DNA from: Deltaproteobacteria bacterium
Lineage (GTDB): Bacteria; Desulfobacterota; Binatia; UTPRO1
Direction: 5' to 3'
Length of the DNA stretch: 32,961 nt
NCBI GenBank assembly: GCA_029262315.1
Contig: JAJCZP010000240.1
Location: forward strand, 1-32,961
Part shown: positions 19,675 to 29,450 of the stretch, one piece after another
How the letters are laid out: each line of letters opens with the position of its first letter
Position numbering within the stretch: position 1 is the first letter of the stretch
Program-made: the position numbers and the translations under genes
The notes under the pieces: generated by a model
Seen by the model: only the letters and a program-made list of their open reading frames with translations
The model's database searches: none
Told to the model about the DNA's origin: nothing

Positions 19675-20448
<774 letters not shown>

Positions 20449-20498
20449 GGGTCGAGGCGGATCGTGCGCAGGTACGCGGGGGCGAGACGGTGCAGCAC

Positions 20499-20585
20499 AT
20501 GGAGCCCGCATGGACGCCCGAGATCGAGCAAGCGTGGCGTGATGCACTCCGACCCGGAATCGCGTTGATCGCGGGTCTGTACTGA
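20499..20585 (+). pseudogene. Remnant resembling the C-terminal end of a globin-like protein
   Basis: Starting 50 bases after hisF, 28 codons read MEPAWTPEIEQAWRDALRP and end in IALIAGLY and a stop. The pattern WTPE-x3-AW-x2-AL resembles the last helix of single-domain bacterial globins. No upstream globin body is visible in any frame, because hisF sequence lies directly before it. I read it as the 3' scrap of a gene lost when the island formed. The family assignment is a guess from one short motif, and a chance ORF cannot be excluded. Confidence 0.3.
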
Positions 20586-21012
20586 CGCGGGCCGTAAGCC
20601 GTCGTCCAACTTCGGCCGTTCGCGAGCGACTGCATCGTCCCCGACAGGGCGCTCCTTACATGGACGCGACCCCTCGACAGTGCCATGACGCCTCCGCTTC
20701 GCCATGCATCCTCATCTATCCGTTCCATAGAGGCGTGTTATTCCGAAGCGATGTCGTGGGGAGCGGTGTGGTGAAGACCAAAACCCGTGTCGCGGGGTCT
20801 CGGTTCCAGACGAGGTTGACGTGTCCTTGGACGACGACCGCGTTCTTAGCCGCAAGGTCACGGTTGCTGCGCGACGGCTCGGCGCGCACACTGGAGCGAT
20901 TGAATTCGCAATGGCACCTGACCCTGGACGAGATCGTATGGTTGCGGAAGCGCCTGGGGTGATGGGCTGAATCGCGGATCTCACCGATTCGACGTATTTG
21001 GGGACTGTCACT
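20586..21012. other. Non-coding stretch at the left edge of the island
   Basis: No convincing gene was found in about 430 bases. One + strand frame ends at 20962 with a helical-looking tail (LERLNSQWHLTLDEIVWLRK) and one - strand frame reads NAVVVQGHVNLVWNRDPAT. Neither has a ribosome-binding site, a credible start or a recognisable family. The base composition looks less GC-rich than in the his genes. This may be decayed coding DNA. Confidence 0.5.
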
Positions 21013-21031
21013 CACTACTTTCCTAGTAGTG
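21013..21031. promoter_or_regulatory. Island dyad element, copy 1
   Basis: This is the most symmetrical copy: CACTACT, a 5-base loop, then AGTAGTG, giving perfect 7-bp arms. It fits the CACTA-N9-TAGTG pattern. It lies between the hisF-side remnants and the 3' end of the membrane protein gene at 21144. A second copy lies 36 bases further on. Confidence 0.7.
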
Positions 21032-21067
21032 TCCATGCGGCATTCTCGCCCTCTGCGATGTACGATC

Positions 21068-21086
21068 GACTAGTTTGGGAATAGTG
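21068..21086 (-). promoter_or_regulatory. Island dyad element, copy 2
   Basis: On the minus strand it reads CACTATTCCCAAACTAGTC, with the same 5-9-5 layout and one mismatch in the last base. It lies 57 bases beyond the stop of the gene at 21144-21680. Confidence 0.6.
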
Positions 21087-21143
21087 ATCATCCGTCGCGC
21101 TCGGCATCGACGAGTTTCCTACTAATTCGCTCGGATGCATACG

Positions 21144-21680
21144 CTACTTCGCTGCGAGCGGGGTCTTCTCCGGCGTCGGGCTCGGCGGAGGACGCTGGCC
21201 AGCCTTGAGCGTCTGCTCGATACGCTCAAGGGAGGCGAGCTTCTCCTCAATACGTTCGAGAATCCCGACCGCCTTCCCGATCGTCTCCTCGAGCTGTTCG
21301 ATCGCGGCTTCCGTGGCTCCCGCAGCGACCGCTCCGTCACCGGGCGCGTCCTCCGGGCGCGCCCCGTTCACAAACTGCGCAGCGGCGACGGCGACGGATA
21401 CGACCATCGCGACGACACCTATCCTGATCGCCCAGTTCGCATGGCTTCTGGCCTCCCGCACCGCGACGAACTGGAGCATCGTCGGAACCACGGACGCTTG
21501 GAGGAAGTACTTGCCCTGCTGGTCCCTCGAGAACAGATGAGCGGCGTACTTGTCGAAATCGTCCGAGGAAATCCCTGTGGCTGTGACCGCGGCGTCCTTC
21601 TCGATCGGAGCGTGATCGGCGGCGTACGTGAGCAGCTTCGCGTAGTAGGTACGTTCGATGGCGGTCATCGTTCTCGGCAT
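21144..21680 (-). CDS. Unknown single-pass membrane protein with C-terminal coiled coil
   Basis: The protein has 178 residues and no family is recognised. Residues 5-75 look like a small helical domain (IERTYYAKLLTYAADHAPIE, then GISSDDFDKYAAHLFSRD), possibly winged-helix-like. One membrane helix spans about 83-104 (WAIRIGVVAMVVSVAVAAAQ). A linker rich in Ala, Gly and Asp and then a coiled coil at about 122-160 (EQLEETIGKAVGILERIEEK) follow, with a Pro-rich end. Two ATG codons (21680, 21668) are possible and neither has a clear Shine-Dalgarno. Dyad elements lie on both sides, 57 bases beyond the stop and 193 bases before the start. A nuclease-gene remnant separates it from the upstream dyad. 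Confidence 0.72.
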   Translation of the reverse strand: MPRTMTAIERTYYAKLLTYAADHAPIEKDAAVTATGISSDDFDKYAAHLFSRDQQGKYFLQASVVPTMLQFVAVREARSHANWAIRIGVVAMVVSVAVAAAQFVNGARPEDAPGDGAVAAGATEAAIEQLEETIGKAVGILERIEEKLASLERIEQTLKAGQRPPPSPTPEKTPLAAK

Positions 21681-21688
21681 GTTGCGGG

Positions 21689-21760
21689 CTACGGGATCGT
21701 AAAGACAGCCTTCACGGGCCGGTGATCGCTGCGCTTGGCGTTGTCGTCCAATGGGTTGAG
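21689..21760 (-). pseudogene. 3' remnant of an endonuclease/exonuclease/phosphatase-family gene
   Basis: On the minus strand, 23 codons between two stops read LNPLDDNAKRSDHRPVKAVF plus TIP. The SDHRPV motif followed by a beta strand is the classic last catalytic block (Ser-Asp-His) of the EEP superfamily (exonuclease III, sphingomyelinase and relatives). No earlier part of such a gene is found upstream. The fragment ends 9 bases before the start of the membrane protein at 21680. It is most simply the decayed tail of a gene once lying between the dyad at 21874 and that protein. Confidence 0.6.
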
Positions 21761-21873
21761 TTACGGTCGAAGCCCTTAGCCGATCGGTCCGCAGTGAGCA
21801 CGGGGTATCCGGTCCGAGAGAGGGTAGGTGTTCCAGATTGCGACAGCACCGCGGTTCTCCCCCCTCTACGTAC

Positions 21874-21892
21874 GCCTATCCTTTGAATAGTG
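21874..21892 (-). promoter_or_regulatory. Island dyad element, copy 3
   Basis: The minus strand reads CACTATTCAAAGGATAGGC, with the left half intact and the right half changed in one base (TAGGC for TAGTG). It lies 36 bases beyond the TIR gene stop at 21929 and upstream of the EEP remnant and the gene at 21144-21680. Confidence 0.55.
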
Positions 21893-21928
21893 CGGTCAAG
21901 CATTGGCCCCCCAGATGGAGACAGCCGC

Positions 21929-23026
21929 CTAGTCATCGCCCATCGCCGGTTGAGCGGCCCTATCGTCATCGCTGCGCAAATCGCGCACCAGATGGGAGAA
22001 CTCCTTCTCGAACGCATCTTGATCTTTCCAGTTCGAGAACTCGGGGATGTAGTCTCGCCGAATTCGGGCGGCCAGATCTTCACCGTCGAGTGCCAGGAGC
22101 GTCCACCCCTGTAGGCGCTCGAATGGAAGAAGGCGGATCGGAAAGAGGACGCGGCGATTCTCCCGCTTTTCCCGATCGCAAGCTCGCCTCACCTCGGTCC
22201 TTACCCACTCACTGCCGAGGCTCGCTTCGGAAAGGACAAGCAGCACCTTGTCATGGACGCGGATGGCTTCGTCAACTTGGGGAAAGAGTTCCCGGCCACC
22301 CTTAAGATCCTCGGGTGCGTACCAGACGCGCAGCTTCTCGTCCCTCAATCGGGAGTGAATGCTCCTCGTGAACGCTTCATCGGCACTGCTATAGCTGATG
22401 AAGCACGAGTAGAATTGGATCGGCTCCAACGCCCCAAGCAGTGTCGGCAGGTAGTCGACCATCTCCTCTGGTACGCCAGCGCCGCAGAGGAACGATGCCG
22501 GGATGTTCCCACGGGACTTCATCAACGTATCGATGCCGATCGTGCTGGGCCCAACGTGCCTGATGGTTTCGAGCGCCTTAGTAGTTGAAAGATCGACGTC
22601 GGCGAACACCGTAGCCCTGCAGCTTGCGTCTCTTAGGTTCGCTTCGCTCAGACGCGCTCCGCTCAAGTTGGCAAAGGGCAGGTGTGCCGCTTGCAGGTTC
22701 GCACGGGACAGGTCCGCGGAGCACAGAGTCGCGGAGTGCAGGGACGCCGCGCTTAGATCCGCATCGCGCAGGTCCGCGGAGTTTAGGTTCGCAGCGGACA
22801 GTATGGAGGAGCGCATGTCCGTGGCGGCCAGGTTGGCGGAGTGCAGGTTAGCTTGGGACAGGTCGGCGCCGTGCAGAATGGCGGCGCCCAGGTCCGCGGA
22901 GCGCAGGTCCACGCGCCCGAGTCCCGCGCCACGCAGGTCCAGTCGAGTATCAACATTCACCGCTCGCCATTCTTGAATTGCGACCTTCCCCCGTCTGACG
23001 ATCTCTACATGCTGATGCTTAGCCAT
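21929..23026 (-). CDS. Pentapeptide-repeat / TIR-domain protein, paralogue 1
   Basis: The protein has 365 residues. Residues 29-148 are about 24 pentapeptide repeats of the A(D/N)LxxA type, which fold as a right-handed beta-helix. A linker carries the conserved GPSTIGIDTL (159-168) and FLCGAGVPEEMVDYLPTLLG. A TIR domain starts at about 205 (FYSCFISYSSADEAF), with WYAPEDLKGG and the helix SEWVRTEVRRA. Glu278 there aligns with the catalytic glutamate of NAD-cleaving TIR proteins. Hydrolysis of NAD+ is therefore possible but unproved. An AGGAGG lies 10 bases before the ATG. It is a tandem paralogue of the next gene, sharing its upstream region. No signal peptide was seen. Confidence 0.9.
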   Translation of the reverse strand: MAKHQHVEIVRRGKVAIQEWRAVNVDTRLDLRGAGLGRVDLRSADLGAAILHGADLSQANLHSANLAATDMRSSILSAANLNSADLRDADLSAASLHSATLCSADLSRANLQAAHLPFANLSGARLSEANLRDASCRATVFADVDLSTTKALETIRHVGPSTIGIDTLMKSRGNIPASFLCGAGVPEEMVDYLPTLLGALEPIQFYSCFISYSSADEAFTRSIHSRLRDEKLRVWYAPEDLKGGRELFPQVDEAIRVHDKVLLVLSEASLGSEWVRTEVRRACDREKRENRRVLFPIRLLPFERLQGWTLLALDGEDLAARIRRDYIPEFSNWKDQDAFEKEFSHLVRDLRSDDDRAAQPAMGDD

Positions 23027-23109
23027 GGCGCGCCGTCCTCCTAGTGGTGCAGCCAGTTTCGCCGATTCCGAGGGATGGGTCCATGTTTCAGAACGAGGCA
23101 GCTAGGCCC

Positions 23110-23128
23110 CACTATTCCTCGGGTAGTG
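23110..23128. promoter_or_regulatory. Island dyad element, copy 4
   Basis: CACTATTCCTCGGGTAGTG has both 5-bp half-sites intact with a 9-base spacer. It lies 83 bases upstream of the start of TIR paralogue 1 and one base beyond the stop of TIR paralogue 2. Confidence 0.75.
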
Positions 23129-23129
23129 C

Positions 23130-24125
23130 TCATTCGCGACGTGGCTCCGCAGATTGCTTCAGGTCACGCATGAGCCTCTTGAACGCGACCTCATAGGCAT
23201 CGTGGTTCTTCCATTTGGTGAAGTCACCTATGTGGCGACCATCCTGGTCCGCCTGGCGAATCCGCTTGGCCCACCCGAACTCCGCCTCCATGACCGCGTC
23301 GTCTATCCGAATCGGAAAGAGTACGTCGTCCGTGCGGCTCTCCTCGGCCTTGCACGCCTCCGTCACCTCGTGCTCCACCCAGTCGCTGGTCAACGAAGCG
23401 TAAGAGAAGATCAGGATCAGCTTGTCATAGACGCGGATCTGCTCGTCAATCACTTTTCGGATCCGGTCCCCGACTTTCAAGTCCTCCGGAGCGAACCAAG
23501 AACGCACGCCGTTCTCTGTAAGATCCGCGTGGAGCCGCTTTGCGAAATCCTCATCGGCAGCGCTGTAGCTTATGAAGCACGAGTAGAATTGGATCGGCGC
23601 CATCGACCCTAGGAGCGATGGGAGGTAGCTGACGAGTGCATCAGGAACGCCCGCTCCGCGGAGGAAGGAGTCGGGAATCTTTCCCCCTGACTCCACCAAC
23701 GTATCGATTCCGACCGTACTAGGACCGAAGTGATCAGTGTCCTCAAGACCCTTCGCGCCCGATAGGTCGACGCGAGCGAATACGGTGTCGAAACAGAGTG
23801 CATTGTCGAAGCACGCACCGCTCAGAATGGCCCCGGTCAGATTTGTGTCGTACAGGATCGATTTGCTAAGGTTCGCGTTGCCGAGATGGGCATTGTTCAG
23901 GTCCGCATGGTGCAGTTTCGCCCCCACCAGCCTCGTGTTGCTCAGGTCCGCACCGGTCAGGTCCTCACCGGTCAGGTCCGCGTTGGTCAGGATCGTGTCG
24001 CGCAGGTCCGCGAGGCTCAGATCCGCGTCGCGCAGGTTCAAGAGGAGTTCAGGATTCTCCGCCCGCCATTGTTGAATAGCGGCCCTTCCCTGCTTGGCGA
24101 TCTCGACCTGTGTAGGAATGGCCAT
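23130..24125 (-). CDS. Pentapeptide-repeat / TIR-domain protein, paralogue 2
   Basis: The protein has 331 residues and the same layout as its neighbour: about 18 pentapeptide repeats (28-122), linker GPSTVGIDTLVESGGKIP with FLRGAGVPDALVSYLPSLLG, and a TIR domain from about 180 (FYSCFISYSAADEDF, WFAPEDLKVGD, DKLILIFSYASL, SDWVEHEVTEA). Glu253 is the likely NAD-cleaving residue. The C-terminal RHIGDFTKWKNHDAY-like stretch is typical of this widespread pentapeptide-TIR family. A GAGGAGGT precedes the ATG by 9-10 bases. It has six fewer repeats than paralogue 1, so the repeat block varies while the TIR part is kept. Anti-phage or stress signalling is a reasonable guess for a TIR protein; the window does not prove it. 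Confidence 0.92.
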   Translation of the reverse strand: MAIPTQVEIAKQGRAAIQQWRAENPELLLNLRDADLSLADLRDTILTNADLTGEDLTGADLSNTRLVGAKLHHADLNNAHLGNANLSKSILYDTNLTGAILSGACFDNALCFDTVFARVDLSGAKGLEDTDHFGPSTVGIDTLVESGGKIPDSFLRGAGVPDALVSYLPSLLGSMAPIQFYSCFISYSAADEDFAKRLHADLTENGVRSWFAPEDLKVGDRIRKVIDEQIRVYDKLILIFSYASLTSDWVEHEVTEACKAEESRTDDVLFPIRIDDAVMEAEFGWAKRIRQADQDGRHIGDFTKWKNHDAYEVAFKRLMRDLKQSAEPRRE

Positions 24126-24186
24126 CGCGCGCCTACCTCCTCGTGGCGACCGTAGTTTCGCCGATTACAGAGAACGAAGCCATGAC

Positions 24187-24405
24187 TCAGAACGAGACGC
24201 CCACTATTCTAGTGTCCGTGTGCTCAGCCATCGTCATCCGGTATCCGGGGGCGGAGCCAGAATCCCACCGCCACTCCAAACATATAAGTAGCGAACGGTT
24301 CAATCTCGGGTGCAAGCCGACGAAGAAGAGCATCGCTGCTAGGGTTACGAGAAATGCCGGCGTGGGCGGCAGGTCCTCGGTGACGATCTCTCGAGCAGTG
24401 GTCAT
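24187..24405 (-). CDS. Possible small membrane protein (uncertain)
   Basis: A 72-codon frame starts at ATG 24405 and has one hydrophobic helix (AFLVTLAAMLFFVGLHP). It is flanked by TTAREIVTEDLPPTP and a polar tail. No Shine-Dalgarno is evident, and its last codons run through the dyad element upstream of TIR paralogue 2. It may be real because other island genes are also small membrane proteins, but it could equally be a chance frame in the 673-base gap. Confidence 0.25.
   Translation of the reverse strand: MTTAREIVTEDLPPTPAFLVTLAAMLFFVGLHPRLNRSLLICLEWRWDSGSAPGYRMTMAEHTDTRIVGVSF
24202..24214. promoter_or_regulatory. Island dyad element, shortened copy 5
   Basis: CACTATTCTAGTG has both half-sites perfect but only 3 bases between them, instead of 9. 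It lies 76 bases upstream of the start of TIR paralogue 2, at the position corresponding to copy 4 before paralogue 1. The DNA around both copies is similar (shared CAGAACGAG and CCCACTATTC on the + strand), so the six-base difference arose after the gene duplication. Confidence 0.65.
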
Positions 24406-24462
24406 TCCCCGATGGGTTCCAGGTCTACGCGGCGTGAGGCTCACACGGCGAGCGTCCCAATT

Positions 24463-24488
24463 TGAGACGGTGCGCACCCACTGTCTCA
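24463..24488. other. Inverted repeat in the gene-poor gap
   Basis: TGAGAC (24463-24468) and GTCTCA (24483-24488) form a 6-bp stem around a 14-base loop that contains the palindrome GTGCGCAC. It lies 120 bases upstream of a strong + strand terminator, so it could be part of a structured transcript. It is short enough to be chance. Confidence 0.35.
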
Positions 24489-24610
24489 CTCTGGCACGTG
24501 TCCGCCGCGCGCGAACTTTTCGAGATGTTCAGCCCATCGCAACCCGCGTACTCTTTTGCTTGGGCGTCGCAGACGGCAAGGACACGTTCCACGCCACGCT
24601 GTGCCGCTAA

Positions 24611-24645
24611 GGGGCTCGGGATCATTCTCGAGCCCCCTTTTTTTT
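24611..24645 (+). terminator. Strong intrinsic terminator
   Basis: GGGGCTCG pairs with CGAGCCCC; with GGA/TCT the stem reaches 11 bp including one G-U pair, around a 4-base loop. It is followed by eight T residues at 24638-24645. This is a textbook rho-independent terminator for + strand transcription. No convincing + strand gene lies upstream within the gap (24126-24610), so it may end an untranslated RNA or a decayed gene. It also insulates the TPR gene that starts at 24799. Confidence 0.88.
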
Positions 24646-24682
24646 GCGCACGAGCACTTCATTCGCAGGGTCAGCCATCGCG

Positions 24683-24701
24683 CACGATCCTCGGGATAGT
24701 C
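24683..24701 (+). promoter_or_regulatory. Island dyad element, copy 6
   Basis: CACGATCCTCGGGATAGTC keeps the 5-9-5 layout with one change in each half-site. Its spacer shares CCTCGGG with copy 4. It lies 97 bases upstream of the TPR gene start and just after the terminator. Confidence 0.55.
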
Positions 24702-24798
24702 ATTCGTCTTTCGTCTCGGGCTGATGATGATCCCGAATCGTTTCGCCCTGACACAGTTGTCCTGGGCGCCCGCGAGGCGGTAGGCTCGGCGGCTAGCA

Positions 24799-26169
24799 AT
24801 GGAGTGGCTGCCGCAGTGGACTACGGACCCCAAGATCATGGTGCCAGCGGTGCTCGTGATCATACTCGCGACGTTCAAAGGTCTATGGGAACTGTTCAAG
24901 CACTTCCGCTCACCTCGTGAGATCACAGGCATCTCGCCCGAGTCGCACGCCATGATCGTCAGGGCATTTGAGGAGCAGTACGCCTCGACCCGCGCGGAAC
25001 TTACCGACCAGCGAGAGCAAACCGCGGCGTTCAAAGCAGCCGTCGATGCCCTGGAGGCCGAGCATGATCGCCCAGGATTCTCGGACGCGGTGACGGCGCT
25101 TGCACAGGGAAAGACCGGGCAGGCGGAAGCTCTGTTCCGCAGCGTTCTCGATGAAGAGCGAGCCAGAGGTCACAGCGCCTTTGGGACAGCGGCCGCCGCC
25201 GCGAGACACTTGGGAGCGCTGGCCTTCCTGCATGATAGCAACGCAGCATTGGCCGCCTATCGCGAAGCAGTGGAGCTGGATCCAGCGTCGCTCGACGGGT
25301 GGAATCGGCTCGGGCACCTCCTGTTCCGTACCGGCGAGCTGGATGACGCGGCTAGCGCCTACAGGCGCGTGCAGTTGCTGAGTAGGGAAGCGAACGACCA
25401 GTCGGGCCTTGCCGTCGCCTACGGCAACCTGGGCATCATCGCGCAGGCGCGGGGCAACCTCGACGAAGCCGAAAGCTTCCAGCGCAAGGCGCTCGCTATC
25501 CACGAAGACCGCGTCCACCGCGAGGGCATGGCGAACCAGTACGGGAACCTGGGCCTCATCGCGCGGACGCGGGGCAACCTCGACGAAGCTGAGGAGTTCC
25601 TGCGCAAGAGTCTCGCCATCCACGAAGACCTCGGCCACCGCAGCGGCATGGCCGCGACCTACGGCAACCTGGGCATCATCGCGCAGACGCGGGGCAACCT
25701 CGACGAAGCCGAAAACTTCCAGCGCAAGGCGCTCGCTATCGACGAAGACCGCGGCCACCGCGAGGGCATGGCGAACCAGTACGGGAACCTGGGCCTCATC
25801 GAGCAGATGCGGGGCAACCTCGACGAAGCCGAGGACTTCCACCGCAAGGCGCTCGCCATCCACGAAGACCTCGGCCGCCGCGAGGGCATGGCGAACCAGT
25901 ACGGAAACCTGGGCCTCATCGAGCAGACGCGGGGCAACCTCGACGAAGCCGAGAAGTTCCTGCGCAAGAGTCTCGCCATCAACGAAGACCTCGGCCACCG
26001 AATGAACATGGCGAAGCAGTACGGTAGCCTGGGCAGCATCGCGCAAACGCGGGGCGACCTCGCTGAAGCTCGACGGCTCTACGAGCGATCGCTGGACCTC
26101 TTTCGAGCGGTCGGCGCTCAACCCGCGATCGAGCATGTGGAAGCCCTGCTTGCCGCCCTTCCGCAGTAG
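24799..26169 (+). CDS. Membrane-anchored tetratricopeptide-repeat protein
   Basis: The protein has 456 residues. A membrane helix at about 12-30 (KIMVPAVLVIILATFKGLW) is followed by a charged, probably coiled-coil stretch (50-90). Degenerate TPR-like helices follow (95-200, for example ALAQGKTGQAEALFRSVLDEE and AAYREAVELDPASLDGWNRLG). From residue 208 come five near-identical 40-residue units of the form YGNLGxIxxxRGNLDEAExF, each ending in a conserved LAI-x-ED helix segment, and one divergent unit ending near 447. TPR arrays of this kind bind partner proteins, so it is a likely scaffold or sensor at the membrane. It is divergent from the TIR genes. No enzymatic domain was seen. Confidence 0.88.
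   Translation: MEWLPQWTTDPKIMVPAVLVIILATFKGLWELFKHFRSPREITGISPESHAMIVRAFEEQYASTRAELTDQREQTAAFKAAVDALEAEHDRPGFSDAVTALAQGKTGQAEALFRSVLDEERARGHSAFGTAAAAARHLGALAFLHDSNAALAAYREAVELDPASLDGWNRLGHLLFRTGELDDAASAYRRVQLLSREANDQSGLAVAYGNLGIIAQARGNLDEAESFQRKALAIHEDRVHREGMANQYGNLGLIARTRGNLDEAEEFLRKSLAIHEDLGHRSGMAATYGNLGIIAQTRGNLDEAENFQRKALAIDEDRGHREGMANQYGNLGLIEQMRGNLDEAEDFHRKALAIHEDLGRREGMANQYGNLGLIEQTRGNLDEAEKFLRKSLAINEDLGHRMNMAKQYGSLGSIAQTRGDLAEARRLYERSLDLFRAVGAQPAIEHVEALLAALPQ
25420..26019 (+). repeat. Five tandem 120-bp repeats inside the TPR gene
   Basis: Units start at 25420, 25540, 25660, 25780 and 25900. A sixth, at 26020-26139, is diverged. Each encodes one 40-residue TPR. Long blocks, such as the DNA for GNLDEAE and for EGMANQYGNLGLI, are identical or nearly so between units, including at third codon positions. 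This indicates recent unequal exchange or gene conversion rather than selection on protein alone. Confidence 0.92.
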
Positions 26170-26201
26170 TCCCGCGACCGGTCGAGGCCGCTCGCTTCGA
26201 C

Positions 26202-26220
26202 CACTATTTGACGAGTCGTT
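26202..26220 (+). promoter_or_regulatory. Island dyad element, weak copy 7
   Basis: CACTATTTGACGAGTCGTT has an intact left half and a poor right half. It lies 32 bases beyond the TPR stop and 81 bases upstream of the start at 26302, the same distance as in the better copies. Confidence 0.4.
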
Positions 26221-26301
26221 GCTGCTCGGGTCCTGCTCATTTCTCGGCCCTTTGCCCTTCTCACCGGAGTTGCTACCAAGGCGAAATGCACGGGAGCAGG
26301 G

Positions 26302-26979
26302 ATGTCGGGCCGTCCACGACGCAAGCGACGTAGGCCCACCAGAACCAAAGCCCCGCCGCGTATGCGACCAGCCACTGTGCTGCGGACAACAGCGCGCGTG
26401 CTGGGCGCCGTAGCGTGGTTCTTCCTCGGCACGGCAAAGCGAACGATGGCCCTTGCCGTGTCATTGGCCACCATCCTCGGCCTCTATTGGACCGCCTACA
26501 TCAGCACGGCGGACATACTGCCGCTGCACCTCCGCGGTCGCCCAGGCGAACTCAGAGACGCGGCTAGCATCACGGCCACTGGGCCCTTCGCGCTGCATGA
26601 TCTGCGAACGGCTTGCATCGCAACCTCCACGTTCATGCTCGACGCACCGCCGGACGTGAGAAGCGGCTGCGATAAGCTGCTCAATACCCCCGATTGGGAC
26701 AAGGCCGCGAAGCGAAACATGATGGTCGAGCTGAAATCTCATGGGACCATTAGCCCTGCAGAATCCCAGGTGAAGCACGTCTGCAGGGGCTTCACCGTCG
26801 GCATGGTCGGGCCGAATTCCGGCTTTGCGTTGGCGGCTGAGTTCGAAACGAGCATTCTCTGGTTCTATCGCTGGCGGCGGCGCGTCTGTCGGGAGTTCGA
26901 AATCCTGATGGATGCGAACGGCCAGAGACGGTTTGTTCCCAGAGGGCCGAACGAGTTCCCCCCTTGGGCCAACGAATGA
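26302..26979 (+). CDS. Unknown membrane protein with basic N-terminus
   Basis: The protein has 225 residues and no family is recognised. Residues 1-27 are Arg/Lys/Pro-rich. Hydrophobic stretches at about 28-44 (LRTTARVLGAVAWFFLG) and 48-68 (TMALAVSLATILGLYWTAYI) would form one or two membrane helices. The remaining 155 residues form a soluble-looking domain with five cysteines (105, 123, 161, 196 among them) and an Arg/Trp-rich segment (ILWFYRWRRRVCREFE). GGGAGCAGGG precedes the ATG. It is in line with the TPR gene and is followed 15 bases later by a dyad element. The layout (charged head, membrane segment, small domain) recalls the gene at 27281. Confidence 0.7.
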   Translation: MSGRPRRKRRRPTRTKAPPRMRPATVLRTTARVLGAVAWFFLGTAKRTMALAVSLATILGLYWTAYISTADILPLHLRGRPGELRDAASITATGPFALHDLRTACIATSTFMLDAPPDVRSGCDKLLNTPDWDKAAKRNMMVELKSHGTISPAESQVKHVCRGFTVGMVGPNSGFALAAEFETSILWFYRWRRRVCREFEILMDANGQRRFVPRGPNEFPPWANE

Positions 26980-26994
26980 CATCGACGCTACGCG

Positions 26995-27013
26995 CACTAT
27001 CTTTTGGGTAGTC
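26995..27013 (+). promoter_or_regulatory. Island dyad element, copy 8
   Basis: CACTATCTTTTGGGTAGTC has one mismatch, in the last base. It lies 15 bases beyond the stop of the previous gene and 33 bases before the small membrane ORF at 27047. A partial site (CACCGGTAGTG) follows at about 27025. Confidence 0.65.
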
Positions 27014-27046
27014 ATCGATGGATCGCACCGGTAGTGTCCTGATGCC

Positions 27047-27154
27047 ATGGGTCAACGTGAGTGGAGGTTCCAGGGGGCGATGCTGGCCGCAGTACTCGCG
27101 GCTTCGCTATTGGCGGCCCTGCTGCTTCCACGGCTCCTCGGGTTTCTCTCGTAG
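27047..27154 (+). CDS. Possible 35-residue membrane peptide
   Basis: This frame encodes 35 residues: a short polar head (MGQREWRFQG), one hydrophobic helix (AMLAAVLAASLLAALLLP) and a short tail. It is too small for most gene callers. Support comes from its clean membrane-peptide pattern and from dyad elements on both sides (copy 8 before, copy 9 fifteen bases after). No good Shine-Dalgarno is visible before the ATG, and an in-frame GTG just inside is an alternative. It could act with the neighbouring membrane proteins, but that is a guess. Confidence 0.4.
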   Translation: MGQREWRFQGAMLAAVLAASLLAALLLPRLLGFLS

Positions 27155-27169
27155 CTGGCCCTCATCGAT

Positions 27170-27188
27170 CACTACTCCTTAGATTGTG
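27170..27188 (+). promoter_or_regulatory. Island dyad element, copy 9
   Basis: CACTACTCCTTAGATTGTG has an intact left half and one mismatch in the right half. It lies 92 bases upstream of the start at 27281 and 15 bases after the small membrane ORF. Confidence 0.55.
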
Positions 27189-27280
27189 GGTCACAGGACA
27201 GCCTCCGCCTCGAGGTTGACCTCGCAGGTCGTGGCGAATAGCTCTCATGCGGTCGCCCGCATCAGCAGCACGAGGCCGGC

Positions 27281-28015
27281 ATGAACGAAAAGTCCGAGGA
27301 CTCCGAGCGCAACAAAGTACCCGGCGAGATAGACGACCGGACCGAAATCCCGCGTCTCGATGATCACGCCAGCTACAATGAGTACGCCGAAGCCCGCCGC
27401 CAGAAACGCGCAGCCAAGAAGCGTCGTCAGCAGAAGCGAGCGGTCCGACGTGCCTTCCGGCTTGCCTCCGAGGCCATGGTCGTAGTTCTGACGCTTGGCG
27501 TAATTCTGATCACGTGTCGCCAGACGCGAATCCTGGACCGACAAACTGACATCCTTGGCCAGGAACATCGGGCGGTCGTCACGCTGGAAACCGGATCGCC
27601 CCTCTGGGAACGCCGCATGCTGCCGGTAACGATCGCTAACACGGGGGTCTTCGCTGCGCCTCGGTATGTCGTGCATGTGGCAGCACGCCGTACAGTCACC
27701 ACGACGGGGCCCTGCATAGGGGGGCGCGTCCATCAACTGCGAAGCCGAGAACCCCTGCGCCCGGGGCAGAGTCGAGCCACGTACACGGCGTTCTCCCTTG
27801 AGGAGTTCGCGGAGTCGGAAGTTGCGGACCTGACGGCCCGCCGAGAAACAATGATCGTCTTCGGGTGCGTCGAGTACGAGAATGGACTCGGCGGGAAGGA
27901 GTGGACTCGATTCTGCCGATGGTTCGACCCAGGAGGGTGGCAGGTCTGCGAGTATCCTAAGGACGATATCGCTCCCTGCAACGAAATCGGGGAAGATCGC
28001 AGCGCCTCCCAGTAA
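27281..28015 (+). CDS. Unknown single-pass membrane protein with charged cytosolic head
   Basis: The protein has 244 residues. Residues 1-60 are highly charged and end in a Lys/Arg/Gln-rich helix (ARRQKRAAKKRRQQKRAVRR). One membrane helix spans about 62-79 (LASEAMVVVLTLGVILI). The outer part carries a beta-rich pattern (HRAVVTLETGSPLW, then MLPVTIANTGVFAAPRY). It ends with MIVFGCVEYENGLGGKEWTRF and several cysteines. This pattern (membrane helix, then an 'N-x-G' strand and a late 'FG-x-V-x-Y' strand) is shared by many unnamed small membrane proteins of accessory regions. GAGG precedes the ATG by about 6 bases. The function is unknown. It is the last gene of the island. Confidence 0.72.
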   Translation: MNEKSEDSERNKVPGEIDDRTEIPRLDDHASYNEYAEARRQKRAAKKRRQQKRAVRRAFRLASEAMVVVLTLGVILITCRQTRILDRQTDILGQEHRAVVTLETGSPLWERRMLPVTIANTGVFAAPRYVVHVAARRTVTTTGPCIGGRVHQLRSREPLRPGQSRATYTAFSLEEFAESEVADLTARRETMIVFGCVEYENGLGGKEWTRFCRWFDPGGWQVCEYPKDDIAPCNEIGEDRSASQ

Positions 28016-28505
28016 GAATAGCGGACCCAGTCCGAGATTGCGGCCTCGATCTCTCATCGAGCACGATCCTTTCGATCGTTGCCGCCCTCGCCTCCCAGGA
28101 TCGGGAAGATCGTTCATGAGCGACCGAGTGACCCGCTCGTCATGTACGAGCTTCCGTCCATCGGTCATCTCTTCGCGCGTTCTCCACCCAATCATGGTGT
28201 CTTCCGCGAGCGACGGGCCGCCGATATGGGGAACGCTCATGACGCCCTCCCCCGAGCAGGAGCGACAGCTCCATCTCATGGATCTGAACATGTGGGAGAT
28301 CTACCGCGAGATGACGCGGGTCGCAGATGCGTGAGCGCAGAGGCCTACGCGACGTACGACCAACCGAAGGAACTGGCGGCGCATCTGTTCGCGTCGCTCG
28401 AGCGCGTCTGTGCGCTCGGAGTGCAGGTGTTCGTCGGTAGTCTGTGAGCGTTATCGGTCTGTGGTTTCGTCGCTCGAATCGTGATCTGGCGTCTATCCTG
28501 CAGCC
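28016..28505. other. Right border of the island, with possible gene scraps
   Basis: No full gene was found. A 31-codon + strand frame at 28239-28334 reads MTPSPEQERQLHLMDLNMWE and continues IYREMTRVADA. It looks like a genuine protein N-terminus, possibly of an acetyltransferase-like family (weak impression). A second frame ending at 28447 reads PKELAAHLFASLERVCALGV. The two are in different frames and joined by a stop, which suggests decayed genes beside trxB. No terminator or promoter was identified. Confidence 0.4.
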
Positions 28506-29450
28506 TCAGGCCGCGCTCTCTTCGCTCTCTGCCGCCTCGAGAAATCGCTCGGCGTCGATCGCTGCCATGCAGCCGGTGCCGGCGGCGGTGATGGCCTGGC
28601 GGTAGGTCCGGTCTTGCACGTCGCCGCAGGCGAATACGCCCGGGACGTTGGTCTCGCTCGAACTCTTCTTGGTGACGATGTAGCCGAACTCGTCCATGGC
28701 GACCTGGTTGGTGAACAGCGCGCTGTTCGGGGTATGGCCGATCGCCATGAACACGCCGTCGATGGGCATCTGGGTGGCGGCGTCGGTTTTGAGGTTTCGG
28801 AGGGACACGCTGGTGACGCCGGCGCCTTGTGGCTCGCCCTGGATCTCGTCGATGACGGAGTCCCAGATGAAATCGATCTTCGGATTCTTGGTGGCGCGCT
28901 CTTGCATGATCTTCGAGGCGCGCAGCTCGTCCCGGCGGTGTACGACGGTCACCTTGCTGGCGAACTTGGTCAAGAACGTTGCTTCCTCCATCGCGGTGTC
29001 ACCGCCGCCGACCACCAAGACCGCTTTGTCCTTGAAGAAGAAGCCGTCGCACGTGGCGCATGCGGACACGCCGTAGCCCATGAGTCGGGACTCGGACTCG
29101 ATGCCGAGGAGCTTGGCGGCGGCGCCGGTCGAGATGATCAGTGTCTCGGCTTCGACGTCGCCGCCGTCGAGCGTCAGGCGGAACGGGCGTCGGCTGAGGT
29201 CGACCGCGGTGACGTCACCCGTCCGGAACGTCGTACCGAAGCGCTCGGCCTGGGCGCGGAAGAGGTCCATCAACTCGGGGCCGAGGACGCCCTTCGGGAA
29301 CCCGGGGTAGTTCTCGACATCGGTCGTGATCGTCAGCTGGCCGCCTGGCTGGGCGCCTTCGATGACGAGCGGGGCGAGGTTGGCACGCGCGGCGTACAGC
29401 GCGGCGGTGAGGCCTGCGGGGCCAGAGCCGAGAATGACGATTTTGTGCAT
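28506..29450 (-). CDS. trxB: Thioredoxin-disulfide reductase
   Basis: This is a 314-residue FAD/NADPH flavoenzyme that reduces thioredoxin. The FAD motif [18 protein letters not shown] opens the protein. The redox pair is Cys131 and Cys134 ([10 protein letters not shown]). The NADPH motif [15 protein letters not shown] and the C-terminal FAD motif [19 protein letters not shown]-like block are present. The ATG at 29450 is chosen because the fold begins there; the longer frame would start at a TTG and add ten unrelated residues. A candidate promoter lies just upstream, shared with the divergent moaC region. The length is standard. Confidence 0.96.

Follow-up and report, generated by a model that had tools for sequence, protein, structure and literature searches.

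The window, i.e., the whole stretch of 32,961 nt that was analysed, is one entire contig (C240) of a 5.9-Mb genome in 298 contigs. It contains an island, an insertion of 7–8 kb at the junction of hisF and trxB (positions 20448–28506), which is flanked by HisF and TrxB and is lower in G+C (0.618 vs. 0.660). In five genomes of the same family, hisF and trxB are either adjacent or separated by at most ~1.2 kb of other cargo, and neither the island nor the dyad described below is present. The cargo includes an acyltransferase in one relative and an amidohydrolase in another. The junction is a variable spot, which is nearly empty in some genomes of the family, occupied by other cargo in two, and occupied by the island here. 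The genes of the left half of the island are all on the minus strand and those of the right half all on the plus strand:

21144–21680, minus strand: 178-aa orphan protein with a predicted winged-helix fold, a transmembrane segment, and a coiled coil
21929–23026, minus strand: TIR1, with pentapeptide repeats and a TIR domain
23130–24125, minus strand: TIR2, with pentapeptide repeats and a TIR domain, 51% identical to TIR1
24799–26169, plus strand: TPR protein with an N-terminal hydrophobic segment
26302–26979, plus strand: 225-aa orphan protein with one hydrophobic segment
27047–27154, plus strand: putative small hydrophobic ORF of 35 aa
27281–28015, plus strand: 244-aa orphan protein with one hydrophobic segment

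All island proteins other than the TIR proteins have one strong hydrophobic segment each. No relatives of the 244-aa and 178-aa proteins were found in 148 genomes of the class, and a search of the orphan genes against plasmids gave no match. Structure prediction for the 225-aa protein was poor.

The gaps between these genes contain a 19-bp dyad, CACTA-N9-TAGTG. The initial annotation had listed eight copies of it plus a shortened one at 24202, and all nine were found in place, the copy at 26202 being weaker, as had been said. Its list was incomplete, since it left out a copy at 28062–28080, a doubtful one at 24382–24400, and a second locus in the genome, which is discussed below. The copies are as follows:

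21013–21031, minus strand (orientation via the extended motif): dyad CACTACTTTCCTAGTAGTG, exact; terminal copy of the left half
21068–21086, minus strand: dyad GACTAGTTTGGGAATAGTG, one mismatch; 57 nt past the stop codon of the 178-aa gene
21874–21892, minus strand: dyad GCCTATCCTTTGAATAGTG, two mismatches by the program's count; 193 nt upstream of the 178-aa gene
23110–23128, minus strand: dyad CACTATTCCTCGGGTAGTG, exact; 83 nt upstream of TIR1 and 1 nt past the stop codon of TIR2
24202–24214, minus strand: dyad with a central deletion of 6 bp (CACTA-GAATAGTG); ~76 nt upstream of TIR2
24382–24400, minus strand: candidate degenerate dyad, doubtful; 13.9 bits, the top background elsewhere in the window being 9.7
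24683–24701, plus strand: dyad CACGATCCTCGGGATAGTC, two mismatches by the program's count; 97 nt upstream of the TPR gene
26202–26220, plus strand: dyad CACTATTTGACGAGTCGTT, the weaker copy mentioned above; 32 nt past the stop codon of the TPR gene and 81 nt upstream of the 26302 gene
26995–27013, plus strand: dyad CACTATCTTTTGGGTAGTC, one mismatch
27170–27188, plus strand: dyad CACTACTCCTTAGATTGTG, one mismatch; 92 nt upstream of the 27281 gene
28062–28080, plus strand: weaker dyad CACGATCCTTTCGATCGTT; terminal copy of the right half

A possible 72-aa ORF with a hydrophobic stretch (24187–24405, minus strand) spans the deleted dyad at 24202, and its end lies within the TIR2 leader.

The dyad is strongly over-represented, and this is not an effect of composition. 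The island gaps (1,632 bp) contain 2, 5, and 9 matches at 0, 1, and 2 mismatches, respectively, against simulated means of 0, 0.01, and 0.29, and the maximum reached in 400 simulations was 2. All 1,024 five-base half-sites were also combined with spacers of 3–15 nt, and the resulting 13,312 combinations were screened in the island sequence. With at most one mismatch, ACTAT-N7-ATAGT (Poisson p = 5e-9) and CACTA-N9-TAGTG (p = 1.2e-7) were the top two words, and the smallest p across 100 Markov simulations was 6e-6. When one mismatch per half was allowed, a GC-rich word, CCTCG-N7, ranked above both dyad words. All ten sites, the one at 28062 included, lie entirely outside the seven called genes, as 21% of positions would.

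Equal abundance of the motif elsewhere in the genome, which had been named as the outcome that would refute the initial reading, was not observed, and the clustering of the motif in the island is established. Both exact copies in the 5.9-Mb genome lie in the island. Allowing up to one mismatch brings the genome total to 19 copies, of which 5 are in the island and 14 elsewhere, scattered at 2.4 per Mb. The scan was done with patterns and a 35-nt profile behind a pre-filter, so that part of the candidates was scored and weak copies may be missed. The profile was built from the island sites, which match it by construction, and it revealed a single comparable place outside the island, at C154:766–794. 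A second, weaker copy, with 16 of 17 central bases as in the 21013 copy, lies 513 bp before it, and a 69-aa ORF with a hydrophobic segment is located between the two. In unselected sequence, matches as weak as this second copy occur about twice in every 90 kb, and the pair is therefore probably real. The locus (L086:251–798) is near a contig end, upstream of a gene for a secreted-looking protein with RTX repeats. Among the matches listed, no dyad arrays but only scattered singletons were present in 58 relatives, in 395 genomes of the phylum, and, with the profile, in 145 genomes of the class. One viral contig has a single match to a 24-nt pattern and no cluster. Within the genome itself, a dyad-like match on a 3.1-kb contig (C134, L088) was disregarded; with 35% G+C in a G+C-rich genome, this contig is probably contamination.

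In the aligned copies, the arms are conserved and the centre is free, with a pyrimidine-to-purine gradient. Conserved arms around a variable centre are what would be expected of a binding site for a dimer. Ahead of one arm there is a one-sided extension, AWYGMG, and these ~6 nt of flank conservation give the site an asymmetric extended form. With flanks of 4, 6, 8, and 12 nt, the best of 1,024 assignments of orientation gives the four left sites one orientation and the five right sites its reverse, and this switch coincides exactly with the switch in gene direction. When nine sites with a 6-nt flank were considered, the gene-direction pattern was the best of 256 assignments. The orientation signal is absent from the 19-bp core alone. 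The agreement with the genes is modest evidence, the island pattern amounting to roughly 1 in 256. A fixed orientation throughout the island was rejected, since the all-plus assignment ranked only 5th to 107th of 1,024, with the gene-direction assignment first at flanks of at least 4 nt. A conserved hairpin or RNA element was rejected as well: around half of the cores lack a stable hairpin, and the flanked windows have z-scores of about 0. As no RNA hairpin is common to the sites, their recognition as duplex DNA is indicated. Apart from those of TIR1 and TIR2, the leaders have nothing in common beyond the dyad. A search for another promoter element common to them found none; a candidate, GGCGAA, was discarded because it was reached by 3 of 20 shuffles.

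A narrow distance between the dyad and the start codon had been put forward in the initial annotation as the argument for a common operator. When recomputed, this distance is 83 nt for TIR1, ~76 nt for TIR2, 97 nt for the TPR gene, 81 nt for the 26302 gene, and 92 nt for the 27281 gene, and thus five genes are indeed found at 76–97 nt. However, two genes fall outside this range, i.e., the gene at 21144–21680 (193 nt) and the 35-aa ORF (33 nt), and the sites are even nearer to the preceding stop codons, from which the next dyad is 1–57 nt away in all seven genes. Because of this proximity to every stop codon, spacing alone is not decisive. Every island gene is flanked by dyads on both sides.

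The dyad has been duplicated together with a gene. The leaders of TIR1 and TIR2 can be aligned over the dyad and onward as far as the start codon (z = 15.5), although the two proteins are only 51% identical; immediately upstream of the dyad, the DNA cannot be aligned (z = -0.9). Since the homology begins at the dyad, with none upstream, the dyad, the leader, and the gene travelled or were retained as one unit. This fits an operator associated with a promoter, and it also fits the edge of a cassette. Relatives of the TIR-pentapeptide proteins exist elsewhere, without a dyad cluster: none was found at nine genome loci or in G139, G111, and G023 of the class. One isolated dyad match was located 2.4 kb from the gene in an AT-rich locus.

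The island thus contains a two-armed site that is over-represented, is confined to gaps, has a side-specific extension that agrees with gene direction, and was duplicated along with the TIR leader. We lean toward the view that the dyads are the operators of one dimeric DNA-binding regulator and that the island is one regulon. This view is favoured by the conserved arms around a free centre, the absence of a common hairpin, the position in 5′ leaders, and the orientation matching that of the genes, and also by the over-representation in gaps, the restriction to the island, and the retained TIR leader. The common operator of the initial annotation is therefore still the best-supported reading, although its spacing argument turned out weaker than was claimed. 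One dimeric protein would bind the dyads as double-stranded DNA, and every transcription unit would have a copy in the leader that belongs to it. The regulon, specific to the island, would then comprise the two TIR genes, the gene for the membrane-anchored TPR protein, and the genes for small membrane proteins, controlled either by repression or by activation. If so, the TIR-pentapeptide proteins, the TPR protein, and the orphan membrane proteins would be expressed together, as parts of one response, possibly an immune-like one, and not as a random collection. The dyad would also offer a handle for fishing out the regulator.

Several observations argue against operators. No regulator with a matching dyad at its own promoter was found, and a convincing target gene is missing for the terminal copies at 21013, 21068, and 28062. 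The loss of 6 bp from the TIR2 copy would turn its half-sites to another face of the helix. The genes at 193 and 33 nt break the spacing, which is equally regular past the stop codons, and neither a second promoter element nor an orientation signal in the core accompanies the sites. The sole island gene product with a DNA-binding-like fold is the 178-aa protein. Single-sequence prediction gave a winged helix (pLDDT 81–91 at residues 11–60), after which come a membrane helix and a coiled coil. Its structure matches in the PDB were weak and included MarR-, DtxR-, and IclR-type domains among others, with a best E of 0.15; a match to MarR had a probability of 0.97 at an E of 0.57. Since its presumed recognition helix is acidic, this protein is a weak candidate for the regulator, and the predicted winged helix may bind protein instead of DNA. 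The layout of the protein is reminiscent of ToxR and CadC.

Operator sets of dimeric regulators of the MarR, TetR, LexA, and Xre types resemble the island in having dyads of 16–20 bp with conserved arms and a free centre, placed in the 5′ leaders of multiple units that belong to one element. In contrast to these sets, the island has extra copies at its ends, and its sites also hug stop codons. Altogether, the behaviour of the sites is that of a known kind of system, an operator set specific to an island; within the scope of the searches, their sequence and the regulon are new.

The main rival is an integrase-less cassette boundary, which the initial annotation had also raised: the dyads would be recombination sites at unit boundaries in an array of single-gene cassettes, with the recombinase encoded elsewhere. 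It would account for the finding that n genes are accompanied by n + 1 sites, with every gene bracketed by sites and the ends of the two halves occupied as well, and for the short distance to every stop codon. The homology of the duplicated TIR units ends at the dyad, two of the units tested are orphan genes without relatives in the class, such dyads again lie next to an ORF for a small membrane protein at the second small locus, and relatives carry different cargo at the hisF-trxB junction, all as this reading would have it. However, no recombinase was found among the scanned window proteins, and none of 17 tyrosine-recombinase hits throughout the genome has a convincing dyad nearby. Conventional tyrosine recombinases require an identical overlap, whereas the centre of the site differs between the copies. 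Furthermore, there is no attC-like folded structure, an empty site marked by a single dyad is lacking in the five relatives, and among the matches listed an array was encountered in no other genome. With neither a recombinase nor a hairpin nor an identical centre found, recombination sites remain a rival to operators, and an unlikely one. Known systems resemble the island in part. Integron cassette arrays and CALIN (PMC8618304) share the gene-site-gene-site order of an orphan array with no adjacent integrase, and no integron integrase was found near the island array among the scanned window proteins. Unlike their sites, that of the island measures 19–35 bp and has no attC-like fold, and the island genes form two opposed blocks. 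The arms CACTA/TAGTG differ from the canonical R′/R″ boxes (GTTRRRY/RYYYAAC), and integron attC was rejected on account of the mismatch in architecture and the lack of a conserved hairpin. In Xer/pdif modules, short two-armed sites flank single accessory genes, as in the island. The pdif site has 28 bp in an 11-6-11 architecture (PMC6449649), and it was rejected too, since the island site is 5-9-5, differs in sequence, is conserved over ~6 nt of flank on one side, and is located in a chromosomal island. Quite doubtful is a non-integron cassette system, in which promoter-bearing single genes would be captured and stacked at duplex dyads of 19–35 bp by a putative recombinase; several TIR and membrane-protein genes would thereby share one array, with a second small array elsewhere in the genome. 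If the dyads were unit boundaries, they would point to a cassette-gathering process beyond the integron and Xer systems.

Alternatively, the dyads could act at gene ends, where a bound protein would block read-through between units, by analogy with the stoperators of mycobacteriophages. The operators and stoperators of L5 are asymmetric 13-bp sites, bound by a monomer of a repressor that the element encodes, and, like the dyads, they occur in many copies in the short gaps of one element, with an orientation correlated with transcription (PMC9283540). The latter agreement, the short distance to preceding stop codons, and the extra copies at the island ends are consistent with this possibility. 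Nevertheless, we consider it improbable, since the site is a two-armed dyad and not a monomer-bound 13-mer, and no phage gene or phage-type repressor was recognised in this bacterial island. Finally, the copies could be neutral relics of repeated local duplication of a unit, or a small dispersed repeat without function. TIR1 and TIR2 are clearly duplicates, dyad included, but the other leaders are unlike and the proteins look unrelated, and yet the arms and their spacing were kept. As a neutral relic would not retain just the two arms, such an origin is highly improbable.

Two further features of the island deserve mention. At its divergence point, 24565–24645 on the plus strand matches the Rfam sRNA BjrC68 just over the gathering score, and a strong intrinsic terminator forms its end. 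Since weak matches are common in the class (27 of 145 genomes), this is probably for the most part a generic terminator stem. The TPR gene is built of similar tandem repeats of 120 bp (25300–26189), of which the number is likely to vary.
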